DNA of 64,000 nt from Glutamicibacter ardleyensis (lineage in GTDB: Bacteria > Actinomycetota > Actinomycetes > Actinomycetales > Micrococcaceae). Of the stretch, positions 43,381 to 48,685 are shown in pieces (positions within the stretch are counted from its first letter, which is position 1; the number at the start of each line of letters is the position of its first letter). The notes beneath the pieces are model-generated. The model saw nothing but the letters and a program-made list of their open reading frames with translations. It had not been told where the DNA came from and ran no database searches. The DNA lies in contig NZ_BMKX01000002.1 in the NCBI RefSeq assembly GCF_014644555.1, positions 62,001 through 126,000 of the forward strand, in the 5' to 3' direction. Both the position numbers and the translations under genes were made by a program.

Positions 43381-43395
43381 TGAGAATCGTTCTCA
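43381..43395 (+). promoter_or_regulatory. Zur-type box TGAGAATCGTTCTCA
   Basis: A palindrome with 6-bp arms (TGAGAA/TTCTCA) and a 3-base centre, of the same build as Fur-family zinc boxes (TGAnAAT-type). It lies directly after TAATAT (43375-43380, likely -10) and 16 bases before the ATG of the COG0523-like gene, a good place to block transcription. The operon it controls carries a zinc-free ribosomal protein, which supports Zur. Confidence 0.75.
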
Positions 43396-43411
43396 TGTAA
43401 GCTCTAGTGCT

Positions 43412-44515
43412 ATGAAGCTTATTTTTGTCTCATCCTTAGAAGTTCACTGCCGTGATGCAGCGGTCCAGCGCCTGCTGAGCGAGTACCCCCAGGCGCTGGT
43501 GATCAGCCACGATCTCCTCGAGGGAAATCGTGTACTGCGCCGGGTGGAAGGAAACACCAACGCCAGTGAACGCGCAGAATCCGTGCTCGAACATGGATGC
43601 GTCGGTTGCGCGGTCCGGTTTGAAATCCTTCCGACCCTATTGCGCCTGTTGCCCCAGAACGAGGATGCGGTAATCATTCAGTCGTTGCCGGCGACTTGGC
43701 ATAGTGATCAAGTTTTGGACATCGTGAGCACCGAGCTCGAAGGGCGTGGCGTTGCGATCGACCAAGTTGCTCTGGCTCTGGATCCCGCCGCCGTGGAAGA
43801 CCAGTTCTGGGACCGCAGGAATCTGTGGGAATCGGGATTTAATGCCATGGCCAATGATGAGCGCACTGCCGGAGAGTTCCTGATCCGCGAAATTGCGCTG
43901 GCTGACAGCCTGTTGTTCGTCGAAGGGTTGAGTGTTGCACTACTAGGCGAATCCGCCGGGCACTTGAATTCTTCCGGCGAGCAATTCAGGCGTGGAATGA
44001 AGCTAATACGTGATTCGGCACCGCACGCCACGCTCACCTCCGCGCAGGGCAAGGTCGCGTTGGGTGCCTATGACCGTGACGACGCGCTTCGCAGATCCCG
44101 CCCCGGCCACTTTCAGCACGGCTCTGGCGCCACGGATGTGGGTGGTACAAAGATCCTCATCAAGGTTGAACGGCCGCTAGATGCCGATCGGTTCCGTGAG
44201 GTACTGCCGGATCTTGCAGCTACGTGCATGTGTATTCGAGGGACGCTCTGGATGGCCAGTTGTCCCGGTGTGCGCGTGGCCCTCACTGGGGCCGGACCTC
44301 GAATCTGGCTGGAATCAACCGGCGCCTGGGAAGGCGATATTGCCTGCACCCACCTTGAGCTGACTGGTTCGGAGCACTGCGAAGCCGAGGTGAGGGCGCT
44401 GCTGGAGCCTTGTGAACTCAGCGATAGGCAGCTCTTGGCTCTGCATGGTGCTTCGGGTGCATTGGATCCAGGGCAGCAACAGCACAATGAATGGAAGCGA
44501 GGTGAAAATGAATGA
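43412..44515 (+). CDS. COG0523/CobW-like protein lacking the Walker A motif
   Basis: A 367-residue protein whose C-terminal part ([18 protein letters not shown] ... [19 protein letters not shown]) is the CobW C-terminal domain and whose N-terminal part keeps the Cys motif in shortened form ([10 protein letters not shown]63 and C66). The GxxGxGKT nucleotide loop expected near residue 8 is absent ([14 protein letters not shown]). It resembles the GTPase-like proteins encoded with alternative ribosomal proteins in Actinobacteria, such as mycobacterial Mrf, which recruits a hibernation factor to zinc-starved ribosomes. That role is inferred. Preceded by a Zur-type box; overlaps rpmJ by 4 bases. 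Confidence 0.8.
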
Positions 44516-44634
44516 AAGTTAGGAATTCGATCCGGGCGCTGAAAAAGATGCCCGGTGCTCAAGTGGTCCGCCGCCGCGGCAGGATATTTGTGATCAATAA
44601 GAAGAATCCACGGATGAAGGCTCGCCAGGGCTAA
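44512..44634 (+). CDS. rpmJ: type B (zinc-free) ribosomal protein L36
   Basis: A 40-residue protein beginning [17 protein letters not shown] and ending [12 protein letters not shown]. The normal L36 has a C-C-C-H zinc ribbon; this copy has no Cys at all, the mark of the type B (YkgO) paralogue that replaces the zinc form when zinc is short, setting zinc free. The start overlaps the end of the COG0523-like gene (ATGA), so its translation is coupled. A terminator follows. Confidence 0.93.
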
Positions 44635-44813: not shown

Positions 44814-44880
44814 CCTGTAATGTACTACTCATCACTCGCGAAGGTGAGCGCAATCACCACCGATAGTTATGGATGGAACC

Positions 44881-46098
44881 ATGGCAAATTCAGAGATCAA
44901 GCCGCAGATGAGCTCCAAAGCTCGGCGGACCGCCCTTATGGGGGCAATGTTCCTCATGGCCACAAGCGCCATTGGGCCGGGTTTCATCACCCAGACGTCG
45001 GAATTCACGGTCAAGCTCGGCGCGTCCTTCGCCTTCGCGATTGTCGTTTCGATTTTGGTTGATATTGCAGTCCAGCTCAACGTCTGGCGTGTTATTGGCG
45101 TCTCCGGAATGCGTGCCCAAGAACTGGGCAATAAGGTACTTCCAGGCGTTGGATGGTTCCTCGCAGCACTCGTCTTTGTCGGCGGTGTGGTCTTCAACAT
45201 CGGAAATATCGCCGGAACCGGCCTTGGGCTGAACGCGATGCTGGGCGTTGACGCGAAAATCGGTGGAGCAATCTCGGCGCTTATCGCCATTCTCGTCTTC
45301 TTGTCTAAAAAAGCCGGGATGGCACTGGACCGGATTGTAGTGCTCCTCGGAGCGTTGATGATTCTCTTGATGCTTTACGTAGCAATCGTTGCCGCGCCAC
45401 CTGTTGGTGAAGCATTGAAGAACACCGTGATGCCTGAAAATATTGACTTCTTGGTCATCACCACGCTGATCGGTGGCACCGTGGGCGGTTATATTACATA
45501 CGCCGGAGCGCACCGCATGATCGATTCGGGCACCTCCGGTGTTGAGCACGTCAAAGCAGTCAGCCGCACCTCGGTAGTCAGTATCATCATCACCGGCGTC
45601 ATGCGAGTTCTGCTGTTCCTCGCGATCTTCGGCGTAGTCGCCGGTGGTGTCGCATTGACCAGTGATAACAAAGCAGCAGAGGCATTCGGAGCAGCTGCCG
45701 GAGAAATCGGCATACGGACTTTCGGCGTGATCCTCTGGTCTGCTGCGCTGACATCAGTTATCGGTGCCGCATATACGTCGGTATCCTTCGTCACCAAGTC
45801 CACGACCAACGAACGCACTCGCAACCTGATCACTGTCGCATTCATTGCAGTCTGCGCGGTAATCTACCTGTTCCTCGGACAGGCTCCACAGACCCTGCTG
45901 ATCTTCGCCGGGGCTTTCAACGGACTGATCCTGCCCGTCGGATTTGCGGTTCTCCTCTGGGTTGCCTGGCGTCGCCGCGACCTTCTGGACAACTACAAAT
46001 ACCCGGCATGGCTACTGATCATCGGTGCATTGACTTGGGTGCTGACCATCTATCTTGGGTGGATGTCACTAACCGGCCTAGCCAAGCTCTGGGTCTAA
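44881..46098 (+). CDS. NRAMP-superfamily transporter without the metal-binding motif (YcsG-like)
   Basis: A 405-residue transporter with 11 predicted spans. Span 1 keeps the GPGF turn of NRAMP proteins, but the DPGN metal motif that should follow is missing (GPGFITQTSEFTVKLGA), and span 6 has no MPH motif. So a divalent metal is an unlikely substrate. Relatives (YcsG) sit in 5-oxoprolinase gene clusters, as here, so import of 5-oxoproline or a related compound is a reasonable guess. The ATG at 44881 has GGATGG before it; an in-frame ATG lies at 44869. First gene of the left pxp arm, behind two operators. Confidence 0.8.
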   Translation: MANSEIKPQMSSKARRTALMGAMFLMATSAIGPGFITQTSEFTVKLGASFAFAIVVSILVDIAVQLNVWRVIGVSGMRAQELGNKVLPGVGWFLAALVFVGGVVFNIGNIAGTGLGLNAMLGVDAKIGGAISALIAILVFLSKKAGMALDRIVVLLGALMILLMLYVAIVAAPPVGEALKNTVMPENIDFLVITTLIGGTVGGYITYAGAHRMIDSGTSGVEHVKAVSRTSVVSIIITGVMRVLLFLAIFGVVAGGVALTSDNKAAEAFGAAAGEIGIRTFGVILWSAALTSVIGAAYTSVSFVTKSTTNERTRNLITVAFIAVCAVIYLFLGQAPQTLLIFAGAFNGLILPVGFAVLLWVAWRRRDLLDNYKYPAWLLIIGALTWVLTIYLGWMSLTGLAKLWV

Positions 46099-46127
46099 AA
46101 ACCAACTAACTCGGAGAGGCAGACATC

Positions 46128-46934
46128 ATGAAACTCGAACAACCAGAACGCAGCACACGAGCAGGACTGACACCTAAGGAAGCGCGTGAGCTATTCCGAG
46201 CGGGTCTGAGCGTACCAACAGCTGGCTACAGTGCCGGCTACGCACAAGCTAACCTGATCATCGTTCCGAAAGACCTGGCATTTGATGTCCTCCTCTTCGC
46301 CCAGCGCAATCCCAAATCATGCCCCATTCTGGGAGTACTTGAAGCAGGGCAGACCAGTAATGAACTACTGGTTGACGGAGATATCCGCACCGACCTGCCC
46401 AAGTACACGGTCTATGAAAACGGCGAGAAGATTGCCGAACCGACAGATCTCACCGAATACTGGCGGGATGATCTGGTGACATTCATTGTCGGGTGCTCCT
46501 TCACTTTCGAAGCAGCCCTGATCGAAAATGGCATCAGTATTGCGCACATCGACCACGGCACTAACGTGCCTATGTATAAGTCGAGCATCCGCAGCGCTTC
46601 GGCCGGGAGCCTCACCGGGCCGATGGTGGTTTCAATGCGTCCGATTCCGGCCGCTCAGGTGGCCGACGCAGTGCGCATTACCTCCCGCTATCCAGCGGTT
46701 CATGGGGCCCCAGTTCACGTGGGAAACCCCGAAGAAATCGGCATCACAGATCTGGGAAAACCAGACTTCGGCGATGCCCCCCTTATGCCGGACGGAGCGA
46801 TTCCAGTTTTCTGGGCATGCGGCGTGTCCCCACAGGCCGCTGTCATGGAATCCCGTCCTACGCTGGCGATCGGACATGCCCCCGGGCATATGCTAATCAC
46901 CGACGCCAGGGACTCGCAATATCAGGTGCCGTAA
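46128..46934 (+). CDS. DUF1445 family putative hydro-lyase / D-glutamate-cyclase-like (YcsI)
   Basis: A 268-residue protein with the family blocks REAGLTPKEARELFRAG-like start, PTAGYSAGYAQANL, DLAFDVLLFAQRNPKSCPILGV and CGVSPQAAVMESRP (each in part). The family includes Bacillus YcsI and the D-glutamate cyclase of mammals, which forms 5-oxo-D-proline from D-glutamate. That links it to the 5-oxoprolinase genes of the right arm. GGAGAGG lies before the ATG, 29 bp after the transporter. Confidence 0.85.
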   Translation: MKLEQPERSTRAGLTPKEARELFRAGLSVPTAGYSAGYAQANLIIVPKDLAFDVLLFAQRNPKSCPILGVLEAGQTSNELLVDGDIRTDLPKYTVYENGEKIAEPTDLTEYWRDDLVTFIVGCSFTFEAALIENGISIAHIDHGTNVPMYKSSIRSASAGSLTGPMVVSMRPIPAAQVADAVRITSRYPAVHGAPVHVGNPEEIGITDLGKPDFGDAPLMPDGAIPVFWACGVSPQAAVMESRPTLAIGHAPGHMLITDARDSQYQVP

Positions 46935-47012: not shown

Positions 47013-48023
47013 TTAGTCTCTGCGCGTGGTATCCAATTGCAGAGCCAACCAAGCATCCACTTCAGCTAAACGTGACTTCCTTGCAGCCTCATCAAGAAAT
47101 GAGCCTTCAAAGGAGTTGCGGGCCAGCGTAGCCAGATCGCTGACAGTCAGGCTGAACTGTTCGGCCACCGCAGAAATATTGGCGTCTAAATAGCCACCAA
47201 AGTAGGCCGGGTCATCGGAGTGCAAGGAAACCTTTAAACCAGCTTCGAGCATCTGTGGCAAGGGATGATCGGCTAGAGTCTCTACCGCACGCAAACGCAC
47301 ATTAGACAAGGGGCATACGGTCAGTGGCATCTGCTCTTTGACCAAGCGAGCCACCAGCTCAGGATCGTCCATGCAGCGGATACCGTGGTCGACACGCTCA
47401 ACCTTCAAGACGTCCAGTGCTTGGCGGATGTAATCAGCTGGGCCTTCTTCGCCGGCATGGGCCACGACATGCAGGCCGTGCTCGCGTGCGTAGCTGAAGA
47501 CCTCTTCGAAGAGCTCTGGCGGGAATCCCAGCTCGGAGGAGTCCAAGCCGATCCCGTCGATGGCATGGTTTTCGGTGACAATCATTTTCAGGATTTCCAT
47601 GGCTGAAGCAGCCGGAGCATGACGCCAGAAGCAGGCGATAAGTTTATGGGTCACACCCCATCGTTGCTCGGCCTCTTCGAGCCCAGCGCGTATCCCGGAA
47701 ATGACCTCGGACAGCGACAGGCCGCGTTCAATGTGTGCCTGCGGATCAAAAAATAGTTCCACATGCCGCACACCGGAAGCGTGCGCGCGGTTCAGGTACG
47801 CGGTCGTGATTTCTTTGAAATCTTCGCTTGTGCGTAGTACTGCCATATTGGCGTAGAAAAGATCGAGGAACGACTGCAGGTTGTTGAATTCGTAGTGTGC
47901 GCGTAGTTCTTCGACGGACTCATAGGGCAGGTCTATCCCATTCTTGGAAGCCAAAGCGAAAATAGTCTCCGGTTCCAGAGATCCTTCCAAATGGATATGT
48001 AATTCAGCAAGGGGCAATATCAC
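47013..48023 (-). CDS. adenosine-deaminase-superfamily enzyme, probably adenine deaminase
   Basis: A 336-residue zinc hydrolase. LAELHIHLEGSL carries the HxH zinc site; AHAGEEGP and RVDHGIRC follow; LHSDDPAYFGGYL gives the Asp pair. The SDDPAYFGGY form and VELFFDPQAHIERG are typical of the adenine deaminases of this superfamily (Aah1 and bacterial relatives) rather than adenosine deaminases. It would turn adenine to hypoxanthine in purine salvage. GTG start at 48023 with GGAAGGAA just before; the frame is open to 48098. Single gene. Confidence 0.82.
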   Translation of the reverse strand: MILPLAELHIHLEGSLEPETIFALASKNGIDLPYESVEELRAHYEFNNLQSFLDLFYANMAVLRTSEDFKEITTAYLNRAHASGVRHVELFFDPQAHIERGLSLSEVISGIRAGLEEAEQRWGVTHKLIACFWRHAPAASAMEILKMIVTENHAIDGIGLDSSELGFPPELFEEVFSYAREHGLHVVAHAGEEGPADYIRQALDVLKVERVDHGIRCMDDPELVARLVKEQMPLTVCPLSNVRLRAVETLADHPLPQMLEAGLKVSLHSDDPAYFGGYLDANISAVAEQFSLTVSDLATLARNSFEGSFLDEAARKSRLAEVDAWLALQLDTTRRD

Positions 48024-48247: not shown

Positions 48248-48685
48248 TTAGACTCCTGACAGGATCATAATGATTCGCTGGCGCAATTGATGTGGATTTA
48301 CGCCGAGGTCCTTGAGGCATTGGAATGCCCGTCCGTCACCCATGCGGAGCAATGCCAAAAGTAGATGCTCGGTACCCACCAGTCCATGGCCTAGCTCCTT
48401 GGCTTCGCGTAGCGAAAGGCGAAGAAGCTTTTTGGCATGTGGGGTTAGCCGGACTTCGTCACCCGGTTCAAGCGGACTGGCCTTGGACACTTGATGCAGC
48501 TGCGCGAGGATCGCGTCAGGGGAAATCTCAAGGGCCTGCAGGGCTTGCGCAGCTACCCCCTGCCCTTCGCGGTGCAAAGCTAGCAGCAGATGCTCGGTAC
48601 CCAGATGGCCTTCGTTGCGAGCAGTCGCCGCTTGCTGAGCCAAGACGAGTACCAAACGTGCCGGTTCGGTGAACTTCTCAAACAT
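48248..48685 (-). CDS. free-standing double Clp-N domain protein
   Basis: A 145-residue protein made only of two Clp_N repeats (FTEPARLVLVLAQQAATAR...LGTEHLLLALHREG, and LTPHAKKLLRLSLREAKE...VGTEHLLLALLRMGDG; shown in part). It looks like the N-terminal domain of ClpC without the AAA+ modules. It may bind ClpC substrates or adaptors, or, as in MecA-like control, compete with ClpC. Not known for certain. Single gene, minus strand. Confidence 0.82.
   Translation of the reverse strand: MFEKFTEPARLVLVLAQQAATARNEGHLGTEHLLLALHREGQGVAAQALQALEISPDAILAQLHQVSKASPLEPGDEVRLTPHAKKLLRLSLREAKELGHGLVGTEHLLLALLRMGDGRAFQCLKDLGVNPHQLRQRIIMILSGV

Follow-up and report, generated by a model that had tools for sequence, protein, structure and literature searches.

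We identified a compact two-gene locus within a 64,000-nucleotide stretch of DNA (the window) from Glutamicibacter ardleyensis, the genome of which spans 3.94 Mb in 28 contigs and is 100% complete; a near relative by name, Arthrobacter sp. MYb213, is 84% identical. The locus lies entirely on the + strand, and opens with a perfect 7-1-7 palindrome of the Zur type, TGAGAATCGTTCTCA (43381..43395), an exact match situated in the presumed promoter spacer. This box is abutted by a -10-like hexamer, TGTAAG (43396..43401), and after a further 10 nt, placing the box 16 nt from the ATG, by a gene for a COG0523-like protein of 367 aa without GTPase motifs, which we term Mrf-like (43412..44515). A Fur-family palindrome had originally been predicted to lie over the start region of the operon; the palindrome itself stands, as an exact Zur-type site, but upstream of the start codon and not over it. 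The second gene encodes a zinc-free (C-) ribosomal protein L36 of 40 aa, hereafter L36C- (44512..44634), which shares an ATGA with the gene before it and has a Shine-Dalgarno-like GAGGTG, read from the sequence, 7 nt 5' of its start (44499..44504). A stem-loop followed by CGUUUUU begins 14 nt 3' of the L36 gene (44648..44704), and is a probable intrinsic terminator by RNA folding (-32.4 kcal/mol, z -5.3, with equally good structures in 0/200 shuffles); it was absent from the output of a terminator scan with a loop limit of 8. The two-gene operon is real, conserved and very probably functional, and of a kind already known.

Two further features were noted in the surrounding DNA. At positions 44869-46934 of the window, a D-glutamate-cyclase-family gene (PF07286) comes immediately after a divergent Nramp-family transporter gene (PF01566), and the two resemble a transport-and-metabolism pair. 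On the - strand, 3.6 kb from the operon, a stand-alone Clp N-terminal-domain protein of 145 aa is encoded at 48248-48685 (PF02861). The mycobacterial protein Mrf is turned over via ClpC1/ClpS, and a link between this Clp-domain protein and the operon is only a guess by analogy.

Pfam recognised a CobW_C domain in the COG0523-like protein (PF07683, residues 249-334, 44156..44413; 34.7 bits against a cut-off of 22), and the nucleotide-binding cobW domain fell below its Pfam cut-off (11.5 bits against 20.7). In an alignment with five COG0523 proteins that contain Walker A, the sequence GxLGAGKT is replaced by SLEVHCRD, with the lost loop position at residues 7-14 (SSLEVHCR; 43430..43453), and the NKxD position, which reads NKxD, GKxD or TKxD in the five references, is gone. 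The metal motif, NGCICC in the references and GGCVCC in one of them, has become HGCVGC (residues 61-66; 43592..43609), converting CxCC to C63-x-x-C66. The protein therefore has none of the Walker A, NKxD-type and CxCC motifs of a canonical COG0523 GTPase, and the absence of Walker A and the presence of CxxC for CxCC bear out the original prediction. The alignment by itself suggests that the nucleotide loop is missing; structure prediction from two sequences reached a mean pLDDT of 33.6, and a search of solved structures gave no match with the protein alone and two matches, at E 0.79 and 0.97, with the genus profile. Residues H61, C63 and C66 are invariant in 13/13 genus members, as are C272 and C334. 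We rejected the reading of a broken gene, because both the motif losses and residues H61, C63 and C66 are conserved, and because the frames are open in 68 of the 70 places in Micrococcaceae genomes considered below, with one stop inside the matched stretch in the other two (G013 and G226). Lack of GTPase motifs is characteristic of the family rather than a sign of gene decay. A separate COG0523 protein, with both CxCC and Walker A, is encoded elsewhere in the genome (L017).

The L36 of the operon is of type B, scoring 74.5 bits with the NCBIfam model NF002021 (cut-off 70), which we take to correspond to ykgO. It contains no Cys, and hence none of the Cys ligands, as originally predicted, and has a zinc-type second copy in the ribosomal gene cluster of the genome (L015), beside ORFs that are presumably S11, S13 and RpoA-like. 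As a zinc-free paralogue alongside a zinc-type L36 elsewhere in the genome, it agrees with type B L36; the protein is an ordinary member, and only its operon partner is unusual. We found one copy of L28, zinc-free with a single Cys, adjoined by Cys-free L33 and S14, and one Cys-free copy of L31; L36 was the only zinc/zinc-free pair in this search, which covered L36, L28, L31 and the L33 and S14 copies beside L28. The genome additionally contains one S30AE/HPF gene, coding for a long, MPY-like protein that scores 128 bits to chains of the structures 5zep and 6dzk, which we take to be from M. smegmatis. The zinc-free set of M. smegmatis numbers five proteins: S18, S14, L33, L28 and L31 (PMC7174638).

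We investigated the conservation of the box and of the promoter around it. Of the 13 genus loci examined, 12 have a box with at most one mismatch, as do 29 of the 33 other Micrococcaceae loci, which were drawn from 57 non-genus places, while 855 of 920 random windows from the same loci, some of them overlapping the real box, scored 3-5 mismatches. Across the whole genome, a loose pattern with at most one mismatch occurred 31 times on the forward and 28 times on the reverse strand, against 11 and 9 times for the reversed control. With up to three mismatches allowed, the window contained three box matches (chance mean 1.66, equalled by 21/100 shuffles), which is within chance, and it is therefore the exact match and the conservation that carry weight for the box. 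We discounted a box-like site at 47576-47590, which fits the looser pattern with three mismatches to the window box, and which lies inside an ORF, presumably adenosine-deaminase-like.

The promoter layout was compared over 44 of 46 Micrococcaceae loci; L110 and L119 were omitted as they offered no usable box, in L110 owing to an ORF start far upstream. A TTGn[TA]A element lies within 9 nt 5' of the box in 30/44 loci, at least 4/6 TATAAT matches lie directly 3' of it in 24/44, and an in-frame start codon follows 12-16 nt past the box in all 44. The conserved layout suggests that the Zur operator occupies the promoter spacer and that the operon mRNA is probably leaderless. A strict promoter scan did not list the TGTAAG hexamer as a -10 element, and listed another site in its place. 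Elsewhere in the genome, the same motif precedes a ZnuA-like gene by 53 nt and an ABC-3 permease gene by 21 nt. Of three Fur-family proteins in the genome, the one that was compared matches 3mwm, 7vo0 and 2o03 most closely among solved structures; 2o03 bears the name zinc uptake regulation protein FurB. A promoter box, a Zur-like protein and a box common to zinc uptake genes would together place the operon in a Zur regulon.

The losses seen in the COG0523-like protein are known from mycobacteria. According to Haas et al. (2009, PMC2770081), Rv0106 is missing Walker A as well as the second Cys of CxCC, and Rv0106 is the MPY recruitment factor, Mrf (PMC13418864), also designated MSMEG_6069/Rv0106 (PMC7174638); the stability of mycobacterial Mrf is zinc-controlled through Clp (PMC13418864). 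Because Rv0106 shows the same losses, the odd motifs of the window protein are a mark of the known actinobacterial Mrf group. The NCBIfam MRF model (NF047431) matched the protein at E 5e-18, with 65.2 bits, well below the equivalog cut-off of 375, and matched 13/13 genus members. A profile comparison gave E 1.4e-19 to MRF vs 1.2e-15 to canonical COG0523, in keeping with the kinship to Mrf first proposed from the sequence. In a tree of 62 chosen rows, 54 Walker-less rows (MRF, Streptomyces-type, Micrococcaceae and others) are split from canonical COG0523 with branch support of 95/87, a clade of MRF and Micrococcaceae only is rejected (AU p 6.7e-6), and the window protein is placed nearer to Streptomyces-type relatives than to MRF proper. 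Given the low MRF score and the rejection of an exclusive clade, the protein is, as judged from its sequence, a divergent Mrf-like protein and not a proven Mrf orthologue, and for the same reasons its function may have drifted from that of Mrf.

The protein has in common with Mrf, and with the Walker-less COG0523 group in which both are found, the absence of Walker A, a CxxC motif where canonical members have CxCC, a 5' Zur-type box and zinc-free ribosomal protein genes nearby, one of which adjoins it. It is unlike Mrf in its identity of 24% over the profile alignment, in reaching 65 of 375 bits, and in having L36 as its partner. The Streptomyces-type relatives (L122-L129, so labelled by inference) are likewise without Walker A, and several have zinc-free S14-, S18-, L33- or L32-like ORFs close by, identified by eye; in none of the scanned loci does L36C- lie downstream. 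Unlike the window protein, three aligned Streptomyces-type rows (L122, L123 and L126) retain CxCC as DCACC, indicating that the losses of Walker A and of CxCC are separable in evolution. The canonical Zur-regulated COG0523 GTPases ZigA and YciC share CobW_C with the window protein, and their zinc-starvation control (PMC6103462) would be a further common feature, but they have the Walker A, NKxD-type and CxCC motifs that it is without.

We identified the Mrf-like gene together with L36C- in 13 of 18 genomes of the genus, the other five having neither. The genes are adjacent in all 13, which fall into three neighbourhoods: on the purH side (3), beside genes that we take to be FAH-hydrolase-like and AGCS-like (9), and one other (1). 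A survey of 295 family genomes gave 68 with a match, 120 with L36C- and 66 with both (Fisher p 1e-29, uncorrected for shared descent). In 66 of 70 places, a same-strand L36C- follows no more than 700 bp downstream, a count that omits three rows representing extra pieces of two genes (one in G249, two in G280). The exceptions are G099 and G046, in which no L36C- was found, G280, with a fragmented match and L36C- elsewhere, and G087, in which the match is a weak one to a second COG0523-like family. Among open-licence papers, we found none on this pairing in Micrococcaceae. The ATGA overlap is present in the window but not conserved, as the offset is -4 in 4/13 genus loci and ranges from -11 to +38. 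The original prediction took the tight coupling to suggest one complex or one step for the two products, which does not follow since the overlap is not conserved. L36C- occurs without a Mrf-like protein in 54/120 genomes, and therefore does not require it.

Two individual loci depart from this pattern. In L164 (3724-4034), a short N-terminal Mrf-like remnant lies between an intact Zur-type box and L36C-, the first gene having been lost and the second kept. L119 (G046) is the only examined Micrococcaceae locus without both a Zur-type box and L36C-, and its protein sits on the longest terminal branch of any Micrococcaceae row in the tree (1.41), as if constraint had been lifted.

Outside this family, other partners were found. 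L36C- lies downstream in 1 of the 25 over-cut-off MRF loci examined (27 places listed), and in none of the 16 further Actinomycete loci that were chosen. The Pfam-confirmed neighbours of MRF genes are L33, S14 and S18 (L134) and L32 (L138), and L28, likewise confirmed, adjoins a below-cut-off MRF relative (L131); further zinc-free ribosomal neighbours of MRF genes were identified by eye, and no ribosomal-protein neighbours of the kinds filtered for were seen at L133, L140 and L141. The pairing pointed out in the original prediction is conserved in Micrococcaceae, but, as Mrf-like genes elsewhere adjoin other zinc-free ribosomal proteins, L36 is not the general partner. The one MRF locus with L36C- belongs to G657 (L092/L139), in which an MRF of 527 bits is followed by L36C- 303 nt downstream, and this genome bridges the MRF and the L36-paired arrangements.

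We additionally examined 19 of the 54 L36C- genomes lacking a Mrf-like gene, plus G087, and identified a second COG0523-like gene divergent from L36C- in 8 of these 20 (7/19 and G087; L148, L150, L154, L158, L162, L165, L166, in two pieces, and L167). A box with at most two mismatches lies between the divergent genes in 7/8 loci. Three aligned members of this second family have neither Walker A nor CxxC, and their scores favour ZigA over MRF (103 vs 71, 110 vs 68 and 83 vs 65 bits), which suggests, on these scores, that the family degenerated separately.

The reading that we favour, to which we give an even chance of being correct, is of a Zur-repressed two-gene zinc-starvation operon that provides both an exchange of L36 and a zinc-gated protein recruiting the hibernation factor. 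Zur repression and replacement by C- paralogues are well-known biology, as set out in PMC6103462 and PMC13418864. When zinc is present, Zur would occupy the box, which lies between -35 and -10, and block transcription, as the position of the box suggests, and as zinc falls a probably leaderless mRNA would be made. An L36 without zinc ligands would then replace or supplement the zinc L36, sparing zinc and marking new ribosomes. The Mrf-like protein would have abandoned GTP-driven metal transfer and kept its His-Cys-x-x-Cys as a zinc sensor, being inactive or degraded with zinc bound; at very low zinc it would bring the single MPY-like HPF to the remodelled ribosomes, as mycobacterial Mrf does, a step proposed by homology only. 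We infer repression, zinc gating, action on the ribosome and HPF recruitment alike. For mycobacteria, Tobiasson (2019) reportedly contests that hibernation is a direct result of zinc loss.

Other readings explain parts of these data. The protein might act at the L36 site itself, helping to install the zinc-free form or to remove the zinc form, without any relation to hibernation. The constancy of the L36 partner in Micrococcaceae, the standing of L36 as the only zinc/zinc-free pair found in the genome, and the second, separately degenerate COG0523 family beside L36C- in 8/20 further loci are in keeping with such an exchange factor, which we nonetheless consider unlikely given that L36C- does without the Mrf-like protein in 54/120 genomes and lies downstream in just 1/25 MRF loci and 0/16 other loci. 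It is similarly improbable that the HxCxxC and further conserved Cys simply hold zinc, as a buffer or nucleotide-free metallochaperone, with the nearby L36 reflecting shared Zur control. The descent from COG0523, the invariance of C272 and C334 in the genus and the similar box near the ZnuA-like gene would fit this role; however, the absence of Walker A and NKxD speaks against GTP-driven transfer, ribosomal protein genes adjoin the gene in Micrococcaceae and in many MRF and Streptomyces-type relatives, and the genome encodes another COG0523 protein that has both CxCC and Walker A.

It is less probable still that the two are independent zinc-starvation genes kept together by a common promoter and without functional link. 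The variable gene overlap, and several solitary L36C- genes with their own box, would be expected of mere co-regulation, but the pair is kept across the three genus neighbourhoods and is jointly present or absent in 18/18 genomes, and the Micrococcaceae end branch is longest for L119, where both the box and L36C- are absent. A more speculative possibility, which we regard as rather doubtful, is that the ribosomal zinc switch of these Micrococcaceae is L36 alone, with Walker-less COG0523 proteins tied to it repeatedly and reading the L36 site, so that a single zinc-free protein serves as the hibernation mark. These repeated ties may comprise the Mrf-like gene in cis and the ZigA-like gene that is transcribed away from L36C- and has degenerated separately.

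Mycobacteria turn on several zinc-free proteins together with Mrf, making the change that marks the ribosome hard to single out. Here, the copies of L28, L33, S14 and L31 that were found are already zinc-free, and L36 was the only pair seen among these proteins. This soil-type actinobacterium, which also has a Zur-like regulator, a Mrf-like protein and an MPY-like HPF, would offer a natural minimal system for recognition by Mrf, and such a pared-down variant could help to reveal what Mrf-type proteins recognise on the ribosome.
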